Origin: a virus
Reading direction: 5' to 3' (one strand)
Virus record (IMG/VR): IMGVR_UViG_3300044834_000093
Span: 1-51,772 of that record
DNA: 51,772 bases
Below the pieces are notes generated by a model. That model was not told the DNA's origin. It was given only the letters and a program-made list of their open reading frames with translations, and did not search any database. The position numbers and the translations under genes are program-made. This document shows, piece by piece, positions 5,755-37,888 of the stretch (position 1 is the first letter of the stretch; each line of letters starts with the position of its first letter).

Positions 5755-6173
5755 GTTACGCCATCCGATATTATTGCGGCAATCGCCTATTCGAGTGGGT
5801 GATGACCGCCGCCATGCTCGGGCTGACCATAGAGATCATGCTGTGGCCAGAAACGATCAAGGCATCGGCCTTCCGTTTCATGCTGGAAATGATAAGCACG
5901 CAATTCCTTGGCTGGTTTTTTCTGATCGCGGGCTCTCTCCGCGTCGCCGCTCTGATTGCCAATGGGTCATGGCCGGTTTACGGCCCCTATCTCCGCTCGT
6001 TCACCGCCGGCGCCACGGCATTAATCTGGATGCAGATGGATGCAGCGCTGCTCGTGCTCGTTCCGATCAATGAAGCTCCTTCGCCCGGAATCCCGGTGTA
6101 TTTCGCACTAACAATAGGAGAATTGATCTCCTGCTACCGAGCGCTGAGCGATGTCGGACATGGAACAAGCTAA
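5751..6173 (+). CDS. four-span membrane protein, phage lysis-region type
   Basis: The 140-residue product has about four membrane helices (residues 14-32, 48-66, 82-104, 110-128) and short loops. I do not recognise a named family. It starts with an ATGA overlap on the o-spanin stop and ends inside the next gene, so it belongs to the same operon. An accessory holin, antiholin or superinfection-exclusion role is possible, but nothing in the sequence decides between them. Confidence 0.65.
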   Translation: MSYAIRYYCGNRLFEWVMTAAMLGLTIEIMLWPETIKASAFRFMLEMISTQFLGWFFLIAGSLRVAALIANGSWPVYGPYLRSFTAGATALIWMQMDAALLVLVPINEAPSPGIPVYFALTIGELISCYRALSDVGHGTS

Positions 6174-8601: not shown

Positions 8602-8675
8602 TGGGGAATAGTTCAACGGTAGAACATCGGACTCTGACTCCGAGAATCTTGGTTCGAATCCAGGTTCCCCAGCCA
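8602..8675 (+). tRNA. tRNA-Gln, anticodon CUG
   Basis: The 74-base sequence folds into a full cloverleaf. The acceptor TGGGGAA pairs with TTCCCCA, the D arm is GTTC-AACGGTA-GAAC, and the anticodon stem TCGGA/TCCGA encloses the loop CTCTGAC with anticodon CTG. The T arm is CTTGG-TTCGAAT-CCAGG, followed by G and an encoded CCA. It reads CAG codons. The gene lies well inside the phage, 43 kb from the integrase, so it looks like cargo and not an attachment site. No promoter is obvious; upstream sequence is AT-rich. Confidence 0.93.
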
Positions 8676-17352: not shown

Positions 17353-17526
17353 ATGCGAAAACTTCTCTGTACGTTTGTGGCTATCGCGCTGATGGCCACA
17401 GGGGCGGCCTACACGTTTATTACGATCCCAAATTTTGAATTTGTGCCGGGGCGGATGTTCATCATCGGGCCATTCGTAACGCTGGCCGGATTCTTAACCT
17501 TCGCCTCGGAATGGTTTGATCTATAG
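17353..17526 (+). CDS. 57-residue rightward two-span membrane protein
   Basis: ATG 17353 is preceded by GGGGAGGGCGGG. The product has an N-terminal membrane helix (LLCTFVAIALMATGAAYTF) and a second (FIIGPFVTLAGFLTFA), ending EWFDL. The clean hydrophobic design argues for a real small membrane protein. It runs against the late operon and overlaps the stop of 17521..18840 by six bases. It may be a moron; function is unknown. Confidence 0.45.
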   Translation: MRKLLCTFVAIALMATGAAYTFITIPNFEFVPGRMFIIGPFVTLAGFLTFASEWFDL

Positions 17527-18840
17527 GCCGGAGTATGCCCCGGCCCTTGGATTTATGGTGACTTGCGGTCGCCGTTTGTCCAACTGATCGGCCATCAGCA
17601 CGCGGACAAGAGCCTCAATGCTTGTAGGAACCTCACGCGGCGCTGCCGCTAGCTTTTCCTGGTACAAAGGCGAGCGTCTACGCACCATTTCATCAAGAAT
17701 GTTCGCCTGCTTCTGAGTTGATTTCTCCGCAAGCATTTTTGCGAGAACTCCGATTGTTGGAGAAGCCACGGCTGCAACACCGCCACCAATCGGACCGCCC
17801 GCTGCCGTTCCAGCCACACCAGCCGCAACCGATGCTGGCCAACCCGTCATAGGATGAGACAGGGCAAGCTTGCTTAGCAGGCGTGCGGCATTCCCAGTGC
17901 GCGTACCTGCAACAATCTTCTCCATTTGAGCAATTTCATCGGCGGTATAGCCCCTCGTTCCGTTCTTAGAATCGAGAATGGAACTGATCTTCTGCCGAAG
18001 CGCATTGTCGACATTAGCGCCGCTTCCTGCCTTTTGTGCCTGCCGTTCTGCCCTTGAAAATCGAGTGCCTATATCCTCTGCCCTAAAACCTGCGGCAGAG
18101 TTGGCGCGGGCCGTTGCTAGTTCTGGCGACAATGGCGACAGCGTGTCGTCAACAATACCAATGGCACGGCGCGAGGCATCGCTTTCAGCATAATCCTTGC
18201 CTGCAACACGAAAAGCACGCCGCATGGCTTCGATATTGTTGACACCAACAGGCCCAAGAGATTCGCCTTCCTTTAAGGCTGGCGGCGTCATTTCCTTAAC
18301 AACACCAAATGTCCTTGGAGCCGTCGCCGGGAGATACCCTTGATCGGTTAGTTCATTACCGATCTTCGACTGCATCGCAGCGATTGCTTCCGGCGGAACC
18401 GTCACGCCAGATTCCCGCGCCGCATTGTATCCGCGTGATGCCGCTGCCTCTAATTCCTGCTGGGTTGGTGCCGCCACTTTGCGAGGGCGCATACCGAACA
18501 CAGGCGGGGCAGGACTTGAAGGCGTGAATACCATAGCCGCTTCTGCGGCGGGTCCAATCATGGCTTCTGTGGCTTCGCGCGAACCGGCGGGGGCCGATTG
18601 CGCGGCCTCTATGGCGCGCTGCGGTATGCCAGCAATCTCTCGAACGGATCGCTCGGGCCAGGTCTGATAACGTGACCCACCGATGCCCAGGAGCTGATCC
18701 ACAGCGCCACGGCCCGCCATTGGCGCACTCGCGCCAGCAAGACGCTGGGCGGGCGCATCGTCAAGCACAAAGCCGGGTGGTAACTGCGGGGGCGCGGCTG
18801 TTTGCTGATCGATGACAAAGCCTGGAGGGAGTTGGCTCAT
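17521..18840 (-). CDS. putative internal virion (ejection) protein
   Basis: The 439-residue product begins with two copies of LPPGFV(I/L)D, a motif typical of large internal proteins of alphaproteobacterial short-tailed phages. A long Ala-rich helical region follows, then a Gly/Ala-rich hydrophobic stretch (about residues 330-365, AGVAGTAAGGPIGGGVAAV) that could insert into membrane. The C-terminus is basic. These features fit a protein injected with the DNA, but no named family is certain. The start overlaps the upstream stop as ATGA. It lies between the lysozyme protein and the fibre. Confidence 0.6.
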   Translation of the reverse strand: MSQLPPGFVIDQQTAAPPQLPPGFVLDDAPAQRLAGASAPMAGRGAVDQLLGIGGSRYQTWPERSVREIAGIPQRAIEAAQSAPAGSREATEAMIGPAAEAAMVFTPSSPAPPVFGMRPRKVAAPTQQELEAAASRGYNAARESGVTVPPEAIAAMQSKIGNELTDQGYLPATAPRTFGVVKEMTPPALKEGESLGPVGVNNIEAMRRAFRVAGKDYAESDASRRAIGIVDDTLSPLSPELATARANSAAGFRAEDIGTRFSRAERQAQKAGSGANVDNALRQKISSILDSKNGTRGYTADEIAQMEKIVAGTRTGNAARLLSKLALSHPMTGWPASVAAGVAGTAAGGPIGGGVAAVASPTIGVLAKMLAEKSTQKQANILDEMVRRRSPLYQEKLAAAPREVPTSIEALVRVLMADQLDKRRPQVTINPRAGAYSGL

Positions 18841-21269
18841 TGCACGGGTGCCCACTGGCCGCCACGATAAATAAGCTTTTCGCCGGTCTGCGGATTGGTT
18901 GCCGTCATGCCATCGGAGATTTTAGGAGTTGATTGCGGTCCAGCTCCGGGACTCTGCGCCTGGGGTGGTTTCTCAGGGAACAGCCGGTTAGCATCGGAAA
19001 AGTCGGCCAATTCCTGATAGAAACCATCATTGAGACGACCGTGCGTCTTAACGTATTGCTGCCGCAGGCGCTCTATTTCGAGCGAACGGCTCGCTACCTT
19101 CTTCAGATAGCCGCCAATCTCTCTGTTGCCTTCGGGCGTGCGCTCAAGGCCGGGCGGGATCGATTGCAGAAACTCGCGATCCTTATCCGACATAGCACCA
19201 GGCATGCCAGCGCCGCCGCTTGGATTGCGTAGTTCAAGAGCAAACTGATTTTGAATCGAGCGCACCGCCTCTGGCCCTGACAGGTCGCCAACATCTATAC
19301 CGATGGTCTTGGCATAGCGCTTGGCGTCAAGAATGAGGCCAGCGCCAGCGCCAGTCGCGATGTTGGGATCGGACAGTATTTGCCCGAGCCGGTCGAGCGT
19401 TGCGATTTTGTTTCTGGCGCTCGCTGCATTCTTCGGAATCTCATGGTTCAGCTCAGCGAACGATTTTGAATTGAACTCGTCGTATTTCGTTTCGCCGCGC
19501 TGATCAATGCTAACTTTGGATGACCCGGCCTGCTTAATGGAAGTTTGGTACTGCATGAACGGCATAGGCTGCTTTCCAGCGGCTCGCTCCTGTTCGCTGT
19601 ACATCTGATATTCGCGTATGTCGTTGGTGTCCTGCGACTTTGGATATTTTCGGACTAGATTGCCGCGATCATCAAGAATTCCAACCTCATTGCCGAAGTC
19701 GTGCGGCTTAACCTCTGGCGGCTTGGCATACTGCTGATAAAGCTGCATGCCATACTGACGGGTTTTTGGATTGGCAAGCAACGACCTGATCTGCGCTACT
19801 ACTTCTGGTGGGATGGCCCTTGTCTGTTTGCTCGTATCAGGGGAGCCCATCTGCTGCATCTGTGCCATCTGCACCGGAGGCTGAGCAGATTGCGCTCCAC
19901 CCTGTTGCATCGGCGGTAATGGAGGCTCACCCTGCGGCATACCTCCCATGCTGGCGAGCCTAACAGGAGCATTGATGGCCTGCTCTGGTTGGGGCGGCGG
20001 CATCGGTTGTGCGCCGTCCTGCGGGATGTCTTGCGGGCGCGGGCGAGGCAGCGGAACAGAACCGTCAGCCATCTGCGGCTGCTGTACTGCACCGCCACCC
20101 TGATTGAACCATTGTGCCTCTTGCTGACGACGCGAGGCTAGACCCGGCAACGTCTGCCCACCCGCCTTGTTGTATTGCATGAGGCGCTGCTGTGCGCCCT
20201 GCCAGTCGCCAGAGCGGACAAGTTCGCCAAGGCCAGACCGTGACCACTTATCGCCAGCATTGTACGTTAGCGATGTAAGTGCCGCACGCGGCCCCTCCGG
20301 TGCATTTGGCGCAACCCTATCGACAATACCAGCCGCCTTTGTGAGTTCCGTTGCGAGACGGCGCTCACCTTCGGCACGGTCAATGACTTCTCCGGGGTGG
20401 GTTGCGCGTGTGCCGTAACCGACGCTGTTTTGCTTATAATCCCATGCGGCTTTTGGCGTCCATCCTTCAAACTTTTTGATCGCGTCGATGTATTGCTGCG
20501 GTAGCGCGCCGCCTACGTTCGGAATGCTGCCTGGCGGGCGTGGTGCTACCATGCCATCCGACGCCATGACGGGACGGGCTGATGCAAGCTCTGGCGTCTC
20601 ACCTGGAAGCGCGCCTGCAAGCGCACGCTGATTGGGGCGCGGCAATGGCGTTGGCGCAATCGCGGACTTGGCCTGATTGATGATTTCATGGCTGCCAAGC
20701 GGATCGGTGCGGCGTGGCTGTGGTGCTCTCGCAAGCGCTGCGGCCAAGGCTTCGCGGCCAAATATTTGCGGGTCTTGCGAACCGGGGCCAGCCTCATTTT
20801 GCGGGGCCAAGGCTGCGAGCTGCGCACCGCTTAGCCCCGATTGCTGTTCAGGAACGCCACCGCCGGCTTGCGGTGCGGGTGCAGGAGGGGGTGGCGCTAC
20901 AGGTGACGCCTCAGAAGAAGACGGCGGTGCCATTGGCGGCATTGGTGCAGCAGCAGGCGATACCCCGGAAGTACCAAGCCCCGGCAAGTTTTGGAGCGCC
21001 CGCGTTGTCGCAGCGTTCGACGCCTGCTCGCCCGCAATCATCTTTTGCGCCAGCAACCCGCCCATCAGCCCGTTAGCGAGCCGTCCATAGCCCTGCCACT
21101 TAGATTGAACGGGTGAGGTGTTGCCAGCGTCCTGCATATACTGCTGGGCAAGTGCCTTCTGGAATTGGGTGGCAAGATCACCTTGGCCTTCCTCGCCTTG
21201 ATGGGCGCGAAGCGCGAGCAACATCGCCAGTGGATTTTCATTTGCGCCCGGAGCGAATTGGATAGCCAT
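18837..21269 (-). CDS. virion protein with T4-type lysozyme domain
   Basis: The 810-residue protein carries a GH24 lysozyme domain at about residues 262-390: IKKFEGW with the catalytic Glu, AWDYKQNSVGYGT with the Asp, and LTSLTYNAGD. The Thr that usually precedes GYG in this family appears as Ser here. The N-terminal 250 residues and the region 400-480 are rich in Pro, Gln, Ala and Met, so probably flexible. The C-terminal half is helical and ends TGEKLIYRGGQWAPVQ. It probably travels in the virion and opens the murein during DNA entry. Start and stop both overlap neighbours by a few bases, so it is translated together with the ejection proteins. Confidence 0.8.
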   Translation of the reverse strand: MAIQFAPGANENPLAMLLALRAHQGEEGQGDLATQFQKALAQQYMQDAGNTSPVQSKWQGYGRLANGLMGGLLAQKMIAGEQASNAATTRALQNLPGLGTSGVSPAAAPMPPMAPPSSSEASPVAPPPPAPAPQAGGGVPEQQSGLSGAQLAALAPQNEAGPGSQDPQIFGREALAAALARAPQPRRTDPLGSHEIINQAKSAIAPTPLPRPNQRALAGALPGETPELASARPVMASDGMVAPRPPGSIPNVGGALPQQYIDAIKKFEGWTPKAAWDYKQNSVGYGTRATHPGEVIDRAEGERRLATELTKAAGIVDRVAPNAPEGPRAALTSLTYNAGDKWSRSGLGELVRSGDWQGAQQRLMQYNKAGGQTLPGLASRRQQEAQWFNQGGGAVQQPQMADGSVPLPRPRPQDIPQDGAQPMPPPQPEQAINAPVRLASMGGMPQGEPPLPPMQQGGAQSAQPPVQMAQMQQMGSPDTSKQTRAIPPEVVAQIRSLLANPKTRQYGMQLYQQYAKPPEVKPHDFGNEVGILDDRGNLVRKYPKSQDTNDIREYQMYSEQERAAGKQPMPFMQYQTSIKQAGSSKVSIDQRGETKYDEFNSKSFAELNHEIPKNAASARNKIATLDRLGQILSDPNIATGAGAGLILDAKRYAKTIGIDVGDLSGPEAVRSIQNQFALELRNPSGGAGMPGAMSDKDREFLQSIPPGLERTPEGNREIGGYLKKVASRSLEIERLRQQYVKTHGRLNDGFYQELADFSDANRLFPEKPPQAQSPGAGPQSTPKISDGMTATNPQTGEKLIYRGGQWAPVQ

Positions 21270-22627
21270 CAGACCGGCTCCGTCGCTAGATCGTAGCGGA
21301 CTTGCTTGTATCCGCTCTCATGCGTGGAAACGGCCTCCGGGTGAACCTTCTCAACTTGATCGGCCATAAATCCGATGCGAGGCGTTGGATCACCCCTGTA
21401 GTTGTATGAAAATATCGGCAGGCCGCCGCGTTTCTTGTCGCTCTTGCCAACCTGCTCGATATTCTCTTTCAGCCGCTCGTCAGAGAACAGCGCGGGTAAT
21501 GCACTAAGGAGCGATGAGCCAAGACCGAACATGCCGCCCATTGCAGCGTTATTGGCCTGATTTTCCATCTGTGCGCTTTGGTAAATATATTGTCCGACTG
21601 GCGTATCCGCAACATGCCCGGCTTGAAATGGCTGGAACTGCGGAAGGGTCGGCTGGCTGCCGTTCAAAAGCGCAGAGATTTCGCTGATTGGCTGATTGCG
21701 GAGCGCTATCTCTTCCTGCAACGCCTGCTGCCGCAAGGTTTGCTGATTGGCAGTTTCCGTATTCGCTAGATCGAAGCGCTGCGAACTTACTTGATTCGCA
21801 TGGTCTGCCGCGCGCAATCTATCCGTAGCGCTCTGTTGCTGCGCCTGGTTAAAGAACTGCTTGCTGCCAACATCCTGCGTATAACCCTGCTGCTGAGCCG
21901 CATTGGCGAACTGGCCTTGCGCTTGACCCATACCGAACAATCGGGATTGCTCTTGCCCCCCGGCCAGCACGGCTTGCATACGCAGATCGTTGATTTGCCT
22001 GTTCTGCGCGTCAAACGCATTGTTGTACGCGCTAGACCCTTGCGTTACGCCCTGATTTGCCAGCTTTGTTTCCATCGTGGCGCGGTCGCGATCTGTCTGC
22101 GGATTAAGCCGTGAAAATAGCGCGTTTACGACCTTGTCACGGTCCGCTGAGAAATCGTTAGCTCCGATGCTTGTCTGGATCGGTCCTGCGTTGATATTTT
22201 TTTGATAATCCGGCGTCAGGCCACTGGCTGTTTGCAGCCCCGGCGCATTCCGCGCGTTCCTTACAGAATCTGGAAGCTTGTTCTCGTTGATGGTTGTATT
22301 TAAAAGATCACCGATCTTTTTCGACTGCGTAAGCGCCGTTTCTCCGAGCTGGGTTCCGGTTGATTCTTGAAGGTTCAATAATCTCTGTTGATCGTCCGAT
22401 AGTTTTTGCTGCACACTCCAGGTAGGGATTTTATAATCCTGCCCGCCATTAGGACCAGGGACATGTATTGTCTTCTCGCCGGTCTTGTTATACGTGGTTG
22501 AACCAAGCGGACCATAGGTATCGGCATTGCCCATATAGCTGTTGGCAATAGCTGTGCCGATGTCGGCGGCGGTCTGCGCCTGAGCTACTTTGTATGGGTC
22601 TGGAGTGTTAGGTGTTTTGCTGCTCAT
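21269..22627 (-). CDS. virion protein with C-terminal S74 intramolecular chaperone
   Basis: The 452-residue product is Gln/Asn-rich and helical for its first 370 residues. It ends in a short S74 peptidase-type chaperone: FSDERLKENIEQVG, then IFSYNYRG, IGFMADQVEKVHPEAV. Ser and Lys of SDERLK are the expected self-cleavage dyad, with cutting just before the Ser. In other phages this domain folds a fibre trimer and is then released. Here the domain is only about 70 residues and lacks the usual helical tail. The rest resembles an internal or tail protein more than a fibre. ATG 22627 overlaps the previous stop. Confidence 0.75.
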   Translation of the reverse strand: MSSKTPNTPDPYKVAQAQTAADIGTAIANSYMGNADTYGPLGSTTYNKTGEKTIHVPGPNGGQDYKIPTWSVQQKLSDDQQRLLNLQESTGTQLGETALTQSKKIGDLLNTTINENKLPDSVRNARNAPGLQTASGLTPDYQKNINAGPIQTSIGANDFSADRDKVVNALFSRLNPQTDRDRATMETKLANQGVTQGSSAYNNAFDAQNRQINDLRMQAVLAGGQEQSRLFGMGQAQGQFANAAQQQGYTQDVGSKQFFNQAQQQSATDRLRAADHANQVSSQRFDLANTETANQQTLRQQALQEEIALRNQPISEISALLNGSQPTLPQFQPFQAGHVADTPVGQYIYQSAQMENQANNAAMGGMFGLGSSLLSALPALFSDERLKENIEQVGKSDKKRGGLPIFSYNYRGDPTPRIGFMADQVEKVHPEAVSTHESGYKQVRYDLATEPV

Positions 22628-23145
22628 GCTCCGGCCTTCCGTAGCCACTTACACTCTTCGCGGAGCATGCCATACACCATCGCGTCTTCTCGCCCGTTGA
22701 ATCTCTTACGCAAAACACCCTCAAGCTTGAATCCCAAGCCCTCATCAATTCTGCGGGCTGGTTTATTTTTTCTTCCGGTAATTGTCGTCATGCGGATGCA
22801 GTTGAAGAATACGAATGGAAACGAAAACATCGCTCGCAATGTGGATGGCCTACACCAGTCTGATGCATCGAACGCCGCAGACATTTCAACATCGATCATC
22901 TTCCCCTGGCATTGAGTGAATTTACTGAACACAACGCCGCCAACCAGATTGGCCTTGCGAATAACGCCTATCGAGGCATACGGTAAAATGCCAGTCACGA
23001 GATGACGCTCGCCAAAACTCTCACCGCTCATATGCGGGATGCGCTCAGCGACAAATTTGGCCACCATCTCGTCGGCCTTGTAGAGTATGGACCCGATCAT
23101 AAAAGGCTCGTCCGGCTGTGTGATCTGCACAGCCGCCACGCTCAC
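22624..23145 (-). CDS. GNAT-like protein of phage structural clusters
   Basis: The 173-residue product ends in a segment typical of small phage acetyltransferase-like proteins: KPARRIDEGLGFKLEGVLR, then FNGREDAMVYGMLREECKWL. The preceding strand-rich part (ASIGVIRKANLVGGVVF, AMFSFPFVFFNCIRMTTIT) fits the GNAT fold. Such proteins lie among the tail genes of many podoviruses; whether they acetylate anything is not established. The start is a GTG overlapping the previous stop as GTGA, and the stop overlaps the next start. Confidence 0.7.
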   Translation of the reverse strand: MSVAAVQITQPDEPFMIGSILYKADEMVAKFVAERIPHMSGESFGERHLVTGILPYASIGVIRKANLVGGVVFSKFTQCQGKMIDVEMSAAFDASDWCRPSTLRAMFSFPFVFFNCIRMTTITGRKNKPARRIDEGLGFKLEGVLRKRFNGREDAMVYGMLREECKWLRKAGA

Positions 23146-24693: not shown

Positions 24694-25398
24694 TTAGACG
24701 CCGACCGTGCCGGGATAAGCGAGCGTCACTCCGCTAGGCATACGAGCGCGCCCAACATGAAGAATGCGCGAGCCTTTGTCGCGCGCCACCTCCTGCCCCA
24801 TCGCCATGTTGAAGTCTGACAACTCCTGCTGATAATCGAGGCCGTTTTGACTGCGCCACTTGAATTGCAGGCACGAAGTCAATAGACGCTCATTCAGCAT
24901 AAATGCATCACTATCGAGCGTGAACGCGGTTTTATTGTCGCCGGACGCCGGATCGACAATCAGGTTTGATTGATAGTAAAATTTAATACTGGTGCTGGCC
25001 GCCACGGCGGGCTTGACGTTGATTGTGCCACCGATAATAAACCAAGCACCTGCCGTACCCGCCACAGATGTAAGCCCCAAAGCCAGCCATTGATCGGTGT
25101 CCTCAACCCGAGCCAACGGCGCTGCCGTACTAGTAAGAAACACGGAAGAATTAACCGGCATGCGGTCGAAGTCAGCAGGCAGGGAGAAGGCCGTTGTGGC
25201 CCCATCCCCCGCCTGGGTCTTCAGCGTCGTGAGCTTCCGCCAATCATGCGCCTTGGCAATGATCTGGGCGCACTCGTTTGCAAGATTGCAAAGCTGAATT
25301 TCCTGCTGGTCAGTTGACGTAAACAGCGTCGTTGGGGCTGGGTGAATCCCCATCGACGGCAATCTGCATGCGTTCTGAACAGCCGACAAAACCGTCAT
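24694..25398 (-). CDS. head-to-tail adaptor protein
   Basis: The 234-residue product has an N-terminal helical part with LCNLANECAQIIAKAHDWRK, then a central beta region including FSLPADFDRMP, and ends with LSDFNMAMGQEVARDKGSR. This layout is that of podovirus adaptor proteins (P22 gp4 / SU10 type) that dock below the portal. It is followed four bases later by the gp10-like gene. No other family fits as well. Confidence 0.7.
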   Translation of the reverse strand: MTVLSAVQNACRLPSMGIHPAPTTLFTSTDQQEIQLCNLANECAQIIAKAHDWRKLTTLKTQAGDGATTAFSLPADFDRMPVNSSVFLTSTAAPLARVEDTDQWLALGLTSVAGTAGAWFIIGGTINVKPAVAASTSIKFYYQSNLIVDPASGDNKTAFTLDSDAFMLNERLLTSCLQFKWRSQNGLDYQQELSDFNMAMGQEVARDKGSRILHVGRARMPSGVTLAYPGTVGV

Positions 25399-25399
25399 T

Positions 25400-26089
25400 T
25401 CAGACTGCCTCAGCCTTACTGTTGGCGATTTCCGCCACGCGCTTAAGCAACGTATCCCGTGACGGGTTGCCCCTGATGCCTTCGCCTGTCTCGCGTCTGA
25501 TAAAGGCTTTCAGTTCAGTATCCGAGCATTCCTCAATGGATTTATCCCGTTGAGGCTCGACAACTGGTGGCTTGTCAGGAACAAAAGAAGTGATGTTGCT
25601 GTTGGTCAGCCGCTCAACCAGCTCAGTCAGCCGGGCCACTTCAGCCGACAGTTTTGATGTGCCAGCGCCTTCCTTGGCGCGCTCTATGTAGGCCCTGGCT
25701 TGCTCGCGCAATTCCCGCGCGCCAATGCCAAGTTTCGGTAGAGTGCTATCCGAGATACCGGCCAATTCTTCGACCGAGAGGATATTTTGCGCCTTCAGTT
25801 CAGCCACCCGGCTTTTATTCAGCTCGGCATTCGGCCAATGCTCCAACGGAGTGCCAGACGCAGCACGCTCCTCGCCACGCTTGAACGCGGCATAGATTTC
25901 AGGCCATCGGTGACGTTCCACGTCAGTAACCTCACCGACATAGCTAAATTGTTTGTCGCCAGGAATCTTGACCTCCACCATTTCCTTTTCATCGAAAATG
26001 GGACGGCCTTCCTGTTCGGATTTTGATTTGTTCTTTATCGCGTCCATGTGGAATCTTGGACGCGCAACGTCGCGATCAGGCGTTGACAT
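25400..26089 (-). CDS. structural-cluster protein with SAP/HhH-like segments
   Basis: The 229-residue product begins with a charged segment, then MVEVKIPGDKQFSYVGEVTD. A middle part (LSVEELAGISDSTLPKLGIG) resembles a helix-hairpin-helix, then follow a helix and a C-terminal ECSDTELKAFIRRETGEGIR similar to SAP/HeH nucleic-acid-binding motifs. Comparable proteins occur between capsid and adaptor genes in rhizobial podoviruses. The function is unknown; DNA or RNA contact during packaging is possible. The start overlaps the enzyme gene upstream by 14 bases. Confidence 0.55.
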   Translation of the reverse strand: MSTPDRDVARPRFHMDAIKNKSKSEQEGRPIFDEKEMVEVKIPGDKQFSYVGEVTDVERHRWPEIYAAFKRGEERAASGTPLEHWPNAELNKSRVAELKAQNILSVEELAGISDSTLPKLGIGARELREQARAYIERAKEGAGTSKLSAEVARLTELVERLTNSNITSFVPDKPPVVEPQRDKSIEECSDTELKAFIRRETGEGIRGNPSRDTLLKRVAEIANSKAEAV

Positions 26090-27473
26090 TCATTGCTCCT
26101 GTGTTGGCAAATGTTGGCAAAATTTCCGTATTGACAAGGAAGGAGGATGAAATATCCCCCATCTCCTGCCATGACACGAAATACCCGAGTTCATCGAATT
26201 TCTTGCGCCACCACCCATGCGGGTGGACACTCAGATGCAAGCGCCGACCAATTAGAGCACCCATCTTGTCGTCCACCGTACTGATCTGGAAAAACACATT
26301 AGACGCCGAGCCCATGATATTTTTAATGACGGTATCCACCTGTTCGGGCGGGATATGCTCCATCACGTCAATGCAGTAACCAAACCTTTCCCGCAGTGGC
26401 ATCGGCTCGGATAGGTCAAGTTCTATGAAGGGGAGCGCGGCGGCTTCCTCGTCCCGGCAGTTCGGCGCAAAATCCACCAACAGCACATCATGCCCCTTGG
26501 CGCTGATGCGAGCTGCCGCACGGCCTGTGCCGCAGCCAAAATCCACAATGCGCCCGGTTGGCCGTAATTGATCAAGGATGGTATCGACTATGCGTTCAGC
26601 AGGCGAATCCTGCCGATAGGAGAGCATCGACCACATGCGGGAGTATTTTTCTTTTTCAGAAAGTGCGCCATCGGGAGCCCTGTACATATCGGGTAGTAGT
26701 CCGGTGCCGTGCATCTCGATCTTGCAGCCTTCCCCCTTGAGTAGGTTGGCAATCTGCATGAAGCGCTCGGCCTGCAATTTCATGGGCAGGGATGACACGT
26801 AATTCTTTCCGCAAAAGCTGACGTTCATGCAGGCCACTACATCATTCATCTTCTGGCGAACTACATGGCTTTCATTGTTTTCATGCGAAGAATCGTAGCC
26901 ATAGAAGTGCAGATCGCGGTATCCCACAACGAACGCAAGGATTGCCGAGACAAGCCCCACGCTGACGGCGGTACTCATCATTGAATATTCATGCGGGGCG
27001 AGAGCATCAATCTCCGCTTGCAGATCGTCGTCATCTACTTGTAATTGAAAGAGAGTGGCGTTCGGTCTTGCCTTGAAGCACCGTGGGTTTACCGTCGCGC
27101 CGAACAGATGCTGCTTTGCCATCCCGATAAGGCCTAGGCTTTCTTCCTTAGCGTCGATCATCACTTGGAAGTCGGGATGAAAGGAACGGGCGTTTAGAAA
27201 TTTTGCGGCGGCATTCAGGGCAAATATCTTAGCGCCCCGTCCATGCCTCTCGCGTATGTCCCCCACGTCATGCCTTATGCTTGGGCCTGAGCCGCAAAGC
27301 AGAGCAGTGCCACCATGCGCCGGTTCCTGCTTGATCCACCGCTGGCAGTTTTTCGAGTTCTGCCTGATGTGGGAAAAGAGTGTTTCCGGCGGCGTGTTGA
27401 TCAGCACCGAAACAGGGACGATCAAGGGCATGGTCGTGCCCTCATTACGATAGCGAATGTGCAGATCGCCCAT
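26076..27473 (-). CDS. DUF115 (MptE/Maf-like) domain fused to SAM methyltransferase
   Basis: The 465-residue protein has two domains. Residues 50-240 contain ALLCGSGPSIRHDV, FALNAAAKFL and HPDFQVMID, the pattern of DUF115/MptE-like proteins; related domains include the flagellin glycosyltransferase Maf. Residues 295-440 form a class I methyltransferase with RIVDFGCGTGRAAARI (SAM-binding loop), the acidic LLVDFAP and DVMEHIPPEQ. It may add and then methylate a sugar on a virion component, or modify another phosphate-linked substrate; both are inference. It lies in the head-gene operon just after a terminator and has a strong AAGGAG ribosome site. Confidence 0.75.
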   Translation of the reverse strand: MGDLHIRYRNEGTTMPLIVPVSVLINTPPETLFSHIRQNSKNCQRWIKQEPAHGGTALLCGSGPSIRHDVGDIRERHGRGAKIFALNAAAKFLNARSFHPDFQVMIDAKEESLGLIGMAKQHLFGATVNPRCFKARPNATLFQLQVDDDDLQAEIDALAPHEYSMMSTAVSVGLVSAILAFVVGYRDLHFYGYDSSHENNESHVVRQKMNDVVACMNVSFCGKNYVSSLPMKLQAERFMQIANLLKGEGCKIEMHGTGLLPDMYRAPDGALSEKEKYSRMWSMLSYRQDSPAERIVDTILDQLRPTGRIVDFGCGTGRAAARISAKGHDVLLVDFAPNCRDEEAAALPFIELDLSEPMPLRERFGYCIDVMEHIPPEQVDTVIKNIMGSASNVFFQISTVDDKMGALIGRRLHLSVHPHGWWRKKFDELGYFVSWQEMGDISSSFLVNTEILPTFANTGAMNVNA

Positions 27474-27533: not shown

Positions 27534-28031
27534 TTACGTTATGCGGCCCTGGAAAACTGGCCTATTGACGACCAGCGACACAAGAATGACTCCGGTTTTT
27601 GCCGAAGCCACTGCCGCAACAACAGCGCCGCTCAGTTCCTTACCAGTACCGCTGACCGAAATACGGCCAACGGTCTTGACGCCGACCGCAACACCAGCCG
27701 CCAAGGAAATCGTGGCAGCTTTAGTTGCGCGAACAATGCCAGAGATTTGATACCACCCATACTGAGCGGCAACATTAGCTGACATGGCGAAGGCTACTGA
27801 GAGGGACTTGTTTGCCCCAACTGCGGACCGGGTGGTTTGCCCGGTCGTTGAGTTGTAGGTGACAGCATCTCCCACAGCGGTAGATGCAACACCAAGCAAA
27901 TAGATGAACTCACCAGACCCATAGGTAGGGTCGGCTGCTTGGCGGATCGTGCCGATAGCATGGTTTTTAACCGTGCTTGTCGTTGCAATCGGTTGCAAGC
28001 CGAGGGAGTTTTCGGTGAAAATGTAAGACAT
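27534..28031 (-). CDS. small head protein, possible capsid decoration
   Basis: The 165-residue product is rich in Ala, Val, Ser, Thr and Gly and almost entirely beta-like (VGDAVTYNSTTGQTTRSAV, GVAVGVKTVGRISVSGTG). It follows the major capsid gene by 12 bases and precedes a strong terminator, so it is probably made in capsid-like amounts. Similar small proteins in this position decorate or stabilise heads. No Cys is present. Assignment rests on position and composition. Confidence 0.65.
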   Translation of the reverse strand: MSYIFTENSLGLQPIATTSTVKNHAIGTIRQAADPTYGSGEFIYLLGVASTAVGDAVTYNSTTGQTTRSAVGANKSLSVAFAMSANVAAQYGWYQISGIVRATKAATISLAAGVAVGVKTVGRISVSGTGKELSGAVVAAVASAKTGVILVSLVVNRPVFQGRIT

Positions 28032-28043
28032 TTTGTTTCTCCC

Positions 28044-29036
28044 TTAGCCGGTGATCATTTTGGCTTGGTGCAACGGGTTCGCCAGCGTCAGGTTGCCCAT
28101 AAACCCGATATGCTGGACAATCGCGTCCTGGTTCACCGGGCGCAGCTTGCCACCAAAGGCAGCGAAGTTACGTTCCGGGTGATAGCGGAAGCGAAGCCCG
28201 TCATCCCCAACCTTGAGGAAGTAAGACGTTCCAGAAGGCATGGCAGAACCAATGCCGCCCTCAAGAACAACATCCAACTCGTAACCGGCTCCGGCGAAAG
28301 CCAGAGACGGGAATCCCGCCGTGGCCTTGCCTTCCTTGGTAACGCGCTGGATTGCCACCAGCCCCTGCTGGAACATGCGATAATGATCAGCAGAAGCGGC
28401 AATGAGGTTCGGACCATTCTTGCCGCGCGAGTGAGCAATCAACACACGGGTATATTGGTCATGGATATTCGCTGCGGTGGTTGCCGCACTGAAATCTCCA
28501 CTTCCGCTATAAGAACCCGTACGCCATGCCGCCACCGTATTGCGGTCAATGCCGCCGTAGATGTTGGTCACGGTAGTTGGAACGGAGGCCTGCAAGCCCC
28601 CGATCTGGTTTGTCGCCGTGCCGTTCGAGTGCAGGTCTTCAACAAAACGATCCTGCAATTCACGCTCGGCAGCGGAGATATGCTCCTCCATCACATCGAG
28701 GAGTTGGTTCTTTCCTGAGTTTTTCAGGATTTCCTCACCGGAGAGCGTAACCGACACGGCAGCCATTTTCGGCGTGTATTCCGCATCGTTAAACAATTCG
28801 ACGGGGACAGGATTTAGGAAGTCGTAGCCGGTATAACGGACATACGATCCACTTTCGTTGTAGAGAAGGCGCTCACGGATGGATGGACCCGAAAAGGTTT
28901 TCCAGCCGCCCTTGTCCTTCATCATCTTGAGGATAGCATTCGAGTTGGAGACGAGATCGGCGTAACCACGCGACCGATCTTCGAGCGCCAACGAAAATAC
29001 TTCCTGCAAGTGAGTGTCGCTTACCATTGCAGGCAT
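28044..29036 (-). CDS. major capsid protein
   Basis: The 330-residue protein follows scaffold and precedes a small head protein, the expected place for the coat protein. It contains an N-terminal helix (LQEVFSLALEDRSRGYADLV), a long helical spine-type segment (DVMEEHISAAERELQDRFVE), and a C-terminal FGGKLRPVNQDAIVQHIGFM typical of podovirus coat proteins of the P22/HK97 fold. There is no fused protease or scaffold. Start ATG 29036; MVSDTHLQ four residues later is a less likely alternative. Confidence 0.85.
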   Translation of the reverse strand: MPAMVSDTHLQEVFSLALEDRSRGYADLVSNSNAILKMMKDKGGWKTFSGPSIRERLLYNESGSYVRYTGYDFLNPVPVELFNDAEYTPKMAAVSVTLSGEEILKNSGKNQLLDVMEEHISAAERELQDRFVEDLHSNGTATNQIGGLQASVPTTVTNIYGGIDRNTVAAWRTGSYSGSGDFSAATTAANIHDQYTRVLIAHSRGKNGPNLIAASADHYRMFQQGLVAIQRVTKEGKATAGFPSLAFAGAGYELDVVLEGGIGSAMPSGTSYFLKVGDDGLRFRYHPERNFAAFGGKLRPVNQDAIVQHIGFMGNLTLANPLHQAKMITG

Positions 29037-37110: not shown

Positions 37111-37301
37111 CACACCTCCCCCTCGCCTATCGGGACCGGATGAATAGAGGGCTTGGGAAGCTTCGATGTTTCCAGCGCGGCGCGTGCAAGCATTAGGCGA
37201 AGCTCAAGTTTGGATGGTTCGGCCAAGGCTTGCGTGATCGAGGAATCAATGCAGCGCAGATGTGCGGTCCGGTGGTGCTTATCCAGGGAGTAGAAGCTCA
37301 T
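37110..37301 (-). CDS. 63-residue hypothetical protein
   Basis: The product (FYSLDKHHRTAHLRCIDSSI, then KLELRLMLARAALET) is mostly helical and basic. It begins with ATGA overlap on the stop of the DnaA-domain gene and ends overlapping the next start, so it is an operon member. Function is unknown. Confidence 0.5.
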   Translation of the reverse strand: MSFYSLDKHHRTAHLRCIDSSITQALAEPSKLELRLMLARAALETSKLPKPSIHPVPIGEGEV

Positions 37302-37888
37302 GGCTGTTCGTCCTTCAGGGTGAGAAGGGCGGTAAGCTCGGTGAGTTGCTTGTCGAGTTCGGGGTCTACTTCGCGCTGCGCGCCAATCTTCCTGATTGCA
37401 TGGAAAGCCGTAGAATGGTCGCGTCCGCCGAAGCGCCGGCCGATTTCCGCAAGACTGCCTAGCGTCATCTGCTTGACAAGGTACATCGCGATATGACGTC
37501 TGTGGACAACCTGTGCAGTACGTCGATGCGAAAGAATATCGTTGACGCTTATCTGATAATAAACCGCGACGGTTCGGATGATGATGCGGATCGATGGGCG
37601 CGCTTTGACAAGCGGGATTTCATCGCCTAATGCTTGTTCGACACGATCCCTCGCCAGCCTGACTTGGGCGGCAAGAGTATGCAGCTCATCCTGTAGGGCG
37701 ATAAGCTGGGCCTCGCGTGTTTCAGAAACAGGCGCGACAGGTGGGGCGATGGGCTCCGGGAGAACGACAGTTGCAGGATCCGGCGTGGGCGCGGGTACAT
37801 CAGCCCGCATAGGAGGGGTCCAAAGTCTTTGGTTGGCTTCCTGCCAGTTGCGGTGTTGCTGAAGCTGGTGTTGTCCATAATCTGACAT
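37298..37888 (-). CDS. stand-alone DnaA domain IV protein
   Basis: The 196-residue protein lacks the AAA+ part of DnaA. Its C-terminal 90 residues match DnaA domain IV: IIIRTVAVYYQISVNDILS, HRRHIAMYLVKQMT, then the box-binding signature IGRRFGGRDHSTAFHAIRKI. The N-terminus is Pro-rich and has a coiled helix (REAQLIALQDELHTLAAQVR). It should bind DnaA-type boxes, perhaps at the origin in the DUF1376 gene or at host promoters, without ATP control. ATG 37888 has GGGGGAG upstream. It heads the operon's replication part. Confidence 0.85.
   Translation of the reverse strand: MSDYGQHQLQQHRNWQEANQRLWTPPMRADVPAPTPDPATVVLPEPIAPPVAPVSETREAQLIALQDELHTLAAQVRLARDRVEQALGDEIPLVKARPSIRIIIRTVAVYYQISVNDILSHRRTAQVVHRRHIAMYLVKQMTLGSLAEIGRRFGGRDHSTAFHAIRKIGAQREVDPELDKQLTELTALLTLKDEQP

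Follow-up and report, generated by a model that had tools for sequence, protein, structure and literature searches.

A fused DUF115–methyltransferase gene in a phage head operon, exchanged together with half of a small virion protein, as a putative virion-modifying cassette

Maf enzymes glycosylate flagellin. Their DUF115-type domain resembles the sialyltransferase Cst-II, according to a published summary of the Maf structure (PMC11339370). Virion glycosylation by phage-encoded enzymes is established in mycobacteriophages (Freeman et al. 2023, as reported in PMC11600133 and PMC12619734). In cluster O mycobacteriophages, an O-methyltransferase gene is described as being followed downstream by three glycosyltransferase genes (PMC11600133), and glycans are reported to sit on capsid and tail tube subunits, at their C-termini (PMC12619734). 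We found no description of DUF115 enzymes in phage virions in the literature searched.

Here, we analysed a DUF115 gene in a virus record of 51,772 bases, the whole of which we call the window. The open reading frame at 26076-27473, for which an earlier note had given no strand, is real: it lies on the minus strand, starts with ATG and encodes 465 residues. The strings quoted in that note were found in the protein (ALLCGSGPSIRHDV at residues 57-70, HPDFQVMID at 99-107 and RIVDFGCGTGRAAARI at 308-323). In transcription order, the enzyme gene follows terminase, portal (phrog_12082), scaffold-like, major head protein (phrog_9953) and small virion protein (phrog_29386) genes. Behind it come the phrog_20268 gene, which shares its first 14 nt with the enzyme gene's 3' end, and the gene for the SU10-type adaptor (Table 1). 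The note had placed the enzyme between the capsid and adaptor genes; this holds for the head/adaptor slot, but the direct predecessor is the small virion protein gene and not the major capsid gene. In Myxococcus phage Mx8, the small virion protein has a homologue that carries the annotation 'major virion structural protein'. The head module of this podovirus (Myxoctovirus Mx8) has homologues of the major head protein, the small virion protein, the phrog_20268 protein and the adaptor, arranged as in the window, but its slot has no insert. Within this lineage the cassette is optional: among 33 loci found via the major head protein, only two had a DUF115 gene in the slot, one of them being L001, which was also found as an enzyme homologue.

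Table 1. Coordinates of the enzyme gene, its domains and its neighbours in the window
Feature	Position	Strand	Remark
Fused DUF115 (Maf/MptE-like) and class I SAM methyltransferase gene	26076..27473	-	465 aa, ATG start; proposed virion-modifying enzyme
DUF115 / Maf-like glycosyltransferase domain (putative)	26676..27392	-	residues 28-266 as aligned to Maf 5mu5; Pfam and fold
Class I SAM methyltransferase domain	26118..26666	-	residues about 270-452; Pfam and fold
Small virion structural protein	27534..28031	-	165 aa; phrog_29386; proposed acceptor
C-terminal half (residues 99-165) of small virion protein	27537..27737	-	co-varies with enzyme presence
Lys104 codon of small virion protein	27720-27722	-	
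Ser143 codon of small virion protein	27603-27605	-	
Major head protein (phrog_9953)	28044..29036	-	context; basis of capsid tree
phrog_20268 head-module protein	25400..26089	-	context and linkage control
SU10-type adaptor / tail protein (phrog_6013)	24694..25398	-	context and linkage control

Several other features of the window were recorded, all protein-coding ones on the minus strand. The protein encoded at 17521-18855 matched a PHROG 'major head protein' family (phrog_21712, E 1e-28). We rejected it in that role given the stronger PHROG match (6e-75) and canonical place of 28044-29036; its family name may be wrong and the protein an internal component of the virion. An internal phage lysozyme domain (E 2e-19) makes the 810-aa product of 18837-21269 probably a virion-associated cell-wall hydrolase. 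The virion protein encoded at 21269-22648 ends in a Peptidase_S74 (endosialidase) chaperone domain (E 4e-10) and has relatives in PHROG families of virion structural and DNA ejection proteins. Within the tail gene cluster, 22624-23145 encodes a GNAT-like N-acyltransferase (phrog_4470, E 2e-29), possibly another virion-modifying enzyme; N-acyltransferases are annotated in the matching place in Rhizobium phage RHph_I3_18 and in Bradyrhizobium phage ppBjS10J-1. In the 594-aa protein of 831-2615, a DNA methylase (N6_N4_Mtase, E 1e-42) is joined to a C-terminal stretch that resembles restriction endonucleases (NA-iREase1, E 6e-8; Mrr_cat at the cut-off), a possible methylase-nuclease fusion in a phage. 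The gene at 37298-37888 encodes the DnaA C-terminal DNA-binding domain (Bac_DnaA_C, E 1e-25), the rest of DnaA being absent. The sole tRNA gene of the window is a tRNA-Gln (anticodon CTG) at 8602-8675 on the plus strand.

The combination of a DUF115/MptE-like domain and a SAM methyltransferase in one protein, as claimed in the earlier note, was borne out by Pfam matches above the curated cut-offs for both: MptE-like PF01973 (DUF115) at residues 53-199 (E 6e-12, 46 bits, cut-off 34.6) and Methyltransf_23 at residues 286-407 (E 1e-7, 31.9 bits, cut-off 27). No PHROGs family matched the DUF115 domain, and the Pfam scan of the protein gave no sialyltransferase family match. By sequence, the best PDB match was Maf (5mu5, E 5e-10). 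In the AlphaFold2 model of the whole enzyme (pLDDT 90.3), residues 28-266 superposed on residues 244-503 of M. magneticum Maf (5mu5) with Z 21.6 and rmsd 3.3 over 221 residues; outside this region the enzyme consists of a short N-terminus and the methyltransferase, which resembled class I methyltransferases (Z about 18). Modelled alone (pLDDT 93.2), the DUF115 domain matched Maf with Z 21.2 and the sialyltransferase CstII (GT42) with Z 10.9. The predicted fold is thus closest to Maf, yet fold alone cannot separate glycosyl transfer from pyrophosphokinase chemistry.

By Pfam, sequence and fold, the phage enzyme shares the DUF115/MAF_flag10 domain with Maf enzymes such as those of M. magneticum (5mu5) and C. 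botulinum (PMC11339370), and the adjacent virion protein would be its surface-exposed acceptor, as flagellin is for Maf. The enzyme is, however, not a strict Maf, because it has neither the N-terminal Rossmann-like nor the C-terminal helical (flagellin-binding) domain; it carries a methyltransferase instead and is encoded in a phage head operon rather than a flagellar locus. Likeness to CstII extends from the fold to a divergent relative, L142, with a weak match to a PHROG 'alpha-2,3-sialyltransferase' family (E 2.5e-4). The window protein itself, in contrast, gave no direct sequence match to CstII/GT42, is fused to a methyltransferase and presumably acts on a protein, not a sugar.

A profile search of viral contigs yielded 456 candidates, some of them by the methyltransferase domain alone, and the best 80 were kept. 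Nearly all of these 80 were full length (37-81% identity), and about 80 virus loci had a full-length homologue in this slot. The small virion protein gene lay in front of the enzyme wherever the contig extended far enough upstream. In a genome collection, complete copies were also present in Hyphomicrobium, Rhodobacteraceae and Isosphaeraceae assemblies, among others. Across 82 aligned sequences the DUF115 ligand-site motifs were invariant, as were N39, S65, N87, Q103, D107, G173, G184, R186, G192, D194, H203, Q207, N210, S228, M231, G256 and G258. The class I methyltransferase motifs were present (DFGCGTG at D311-G317, D334, D353 and D369-E372-H373) and about 98% conserved in the same 82 sequences, the figure being 98% for D311, G313, G315, G317, D334, D369, E372 and H373. 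Comparison with the enzyme gene of L001 gave dN 0.14 and dS 1.9, indicating purifying selection; together with the full-length homologues in the same slot, this shows that the reading frame is more than a chance occurrence. Among cultured phages, tblastn with the whole protein and one diverse homologue returned methyltransferase-domain matches only and a search with the divergent DUF115 of L158 returned none, so that the fusion was not found in any isolated phage. Several Chlamydiae-related assemblies (L100, L101, L105, L107 and L108; matches near position 6001, in L107 near 3322) contain stand-alone relatives of the methyltransferase domain.

We then compared the small virion proteins of loci with and without the enzyme. 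The mean column difference between the two groups was 0.68 for residues 99-165 versus 0.31 for the first 98. Columns 104, 117 and 143 each held full information on enzyme presence (0.94 of 0.94 bits), whereas the best columns reached 0.40 bits in the major head protein, 0.47 in the downstream neighbour and 0.51 in the adaptor. All 78 loci with this enzyme family had Lys104 together with Ser/Thr143, as did none of the 43 loci without enzyme, and four loci with divergent DUF115 enzymes had Cys104. On a capsid-protein tree of 125 loci, at least 16 changes in enzyme presence fell on well-supported branches, and in all 16 independent pairs Lys104 changed too (sign test p 3e-5). These column-wise, tree-based and control tests replaced overall Ser/Thr content as an argument for the acceptor, which was too weak. 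The Ser/Thr content of the C-terminal half, at 0.206 versus 0.131, counts in favour of our reading. Position 143, and largely also 129, takes Ser or Thr and could be a site of O-glycosylation by its look, and Lys104 may have a structural role.

Because the marker columns had been picked after inspection, a set of 42 unseen loci matters here, although it is enriched for relatives of the window protein. All 32 of them that had the enzyme also had Lys104 and Ser/Thr143, and seven had neither, while L258 and L278 were left unscored as their contigs end soon after. The exception was L277 (4501-5806), where a Lys104-type small virion protein gene is directly followed by the next head gene and the enzyme is absent, possibly by recent loss. 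L258 is a near copy of L277, and there too the next head gene directly follows. Given L277 and L258, we abandoned the notion of a perfect association between the enzyme and Lys104; the coupling of enzyme and small virion protein is strong but not absolute.

Pairs of nearly identical phages differed by just this block. In L046 and L157, flanks of 94.6% and 95.0% identical DNA enclosed one differing block, running from a point within the small virion gene to the enzyme gene's 3' end, and L042 and the enzyme-free L153 gave the same pattern. Since the enzyme gene and the acceptor half are adjacent, linkage contributes to the coupling. It might even account for all of it, if a recombining block merely happened to span the enzyme gene along with the 3' half of its small virion neighbour, while the enzyme acted on something elsewhere. 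The conserved first ~98 codons could then serve as a recombination anchor, the exchanged blocks do stop at the end of the enzyme gene, and L277 and L258 have a Lys104-type protein but no enzyme. But linkage of this kind predicts frequent mismatches in both directions, of which there were none among 125 loci and one exception lineage in the 42 new ones. Moreover, the effect was absent from the downstream neighbour, the other adjacent gene and our linkage control, and an enzyme pair recurs beside unrelated capsid genes, as described below. We regard linkage as the whole explanation as unlikely and favour a functional tie between the enzyme and the small virion protein.

The enzymes found with DUF115 in the same slot of related loci point to glycans. 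Fused to DUF115 or beside it are the phage glycosyltransferase family phrog_1962 in L142 (E 6e-35), L144, L155, L158 and L180, Methyltransf_24 in L142 and L155, a Methyltransf_13/14 sugar C-methyltransferase gene in L147, and a GT2 glycosyltransferase in L144, L147 and L154. In L096 and L098 the order of the DUF115 and methyltransferase domains is reversed. The two activities were also paired as separate genes in siphovirus-like prophages. In the prophage-like Variovorax locus L104, terminase, portal, head morphogenesis, scaffold and major head protein genes are followed by a methyltransferase, a DUF115-like gene (E 4e-5) and a head-tail adaptor. This methyltransferase stands alone and belongs to the same family as the fused domain, whereas the major head protein (phrog_247) is unrelated to that of the window. 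On inspection, Lysobacter L103, Pseudoxanthomonas L106 and the phage genome ctUtU524 (L007) had the same order of head protein, methyltransferase and DUF115, the DUF115 gene of ctUtU524 being 40% identical to that of L104 (E 7e-41). The two-gene version adjoins the capsid gene in Pseudoxanthomonas sacheonensis DSM 19373 and Lysobacter dokdonensis DS-58. L102 has two DUF115-like genes (matches to the PHROG 'alpha-2,3-sialyltransferase' family), a methyltransferase and then a protein that by eye looks like the phrog_1962 glycosyltransferase. That the separate pairing recurs beside capsid genes is the strongest argument for the two activities acting together on virions. In the siphovirus-like prophages the major head protein precedes the pair, and the acceptor may therefore differ there. 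As in the mycobacteriophage systems, glycosyltransferase genes are thus co-located with virion structural genes, in unrelated capsid lineages too.

Phage serotype-conversion genes modify host surface glycans. The same chemistry could accordingly be directed at LPS, O-antigen or capsule during infection, with the head operon providing late expression only. The GT2 partners fit such a target, as does a weak match of L154 to a GtrB-like O-antigen conversion family (E 0.02). Serotype conversion, however, would require neither a tie between the enzyme and one virion protein's C-terminal half nor a fixed place directly behind the small virion or major head protein in unrelated phages, and we judge a host target to be as improbable as linkage alone.

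A slightly weaker candidate still is glycosylation as we propose it, but with the methyltransferase domain acting on a side chain of the virion protein instead of the sugar. The stand-alone methyltransferases directly behind the major head protein would suit this, and Lys104, invariant in the enzyme-linked small virion proteins, could be the methylated residue. In contrast, the solved structures nearest to the domain include small-molecule and sugar methyltransferases (UbiG, RebM and TylM1), and in related cassettes its place is taken by the sugar C-methyltransferase or other methyltransferase types. We consider it very improbable that the DUF115 domain is an MptE-like pyrophosphokinase for a pterin or other small molecule that the methyltransferase also modifies: the Pfam family name and the second-best fold match, M. 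jannaschii 6-hydroxymethylpterin diphosphokinase (HPPK/MptE, 8sd5, Z 15.3; thiamine pyrophosphokinases, Z up to 9.6), speak for it, but Maf fits clearly better, the window ORFs scanned revealed no pterin gene, such an enzyme has no reason to track a virion protein, and we favour glycosyl transfer because the slot partners are glycan enzymes and the separate pair stands among head protein genes of unrelated siphovirus-like prophages. We set DNA modification aside because the enzyme gene lies in a head slot and is coupled to a virion protein.

That the cassette places a glycan on a virion protein we hold to be probable, if not strongly so. We infer the catalytic activity, the acceptor protein and residue, the donor sugar, the order of steps and the benefit to the phage as follows. 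The DUF115/Maf-like domain would move a host-made activated sugar onto Ser/Thr of the small virion protein, within its C-terminal half, and the methyltransferase fused to this domain would afterwards methylate the transferred sugar. By analogy with Maf and the CstII-like fold, the likeliest donor would be a CMP-nonulosonate, although a nonulosonic acid as donor is, taken by itself, a rather doubtful proposition; the window ORFs scanned included no gene for nonulosonate synthesis, and the donor should therefore come from the host. Exchange of the enzyme and the acceptor half as a single block among close phages would then switch the head surface between modified and unmodified states. This complete reading, in which Maf-like sugar transfer to the small virion protein is followed by sugar methylation and both parts are swapped as a block, is the one we favour on balance, with modest confidence. 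The virion-linked glycosyl transfer and methylation suggested in the earlier note is thus partly supported, by the Maf-closest fold, the glycan enzymes in the slot and the tracking of one half of a virion protein, but not in the form of a strict Maf.

The note had further expected such a system to be unusual. Phage virion glycosylation as such has its precedent in the mycobacteriophages, as described in PMC11600133 and PMC12619734; what we did not find in the literature searched is the DUF115-methyltransferase architecture and its co-swapping with the acceptor half. Both systems join phage-encoded glycosyl transfer, here a predicted one, with a methyltransferase, in mycobacteriophages an adjoining O-methyltransferase. 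They differ in that mycobacteriophages employ several separate glycosyltransferase genes, with glycan reported on capsid and tail tube subunits, whereas here a single fused enzyme is tied to a small head protein and swapped with half of it.

More broadly, a widespread modular form of coat-switching is conceivable, if somewhat less than probable: DUF115 enzymes whose glycosyltransferase and methyltransferase partners are interchangeable, together with a matching acceptor half of a capsid surface protein, exchanged as blocks among nearly identical phages and assembled separately beside unrelated capsid genes. If our reading is true, capsid glycosylation would be common among environmental phages and no speciality of mycobacteriophages, and phages would switch it by exchanging the enzyme along with its acceptor domain, akin to the switching of bacterial surface antigens. 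A large set of phage genes labelled 'MptE-like' would also gain a function, and the finding would matter for the recognition, attachment and persistence of phage particles.
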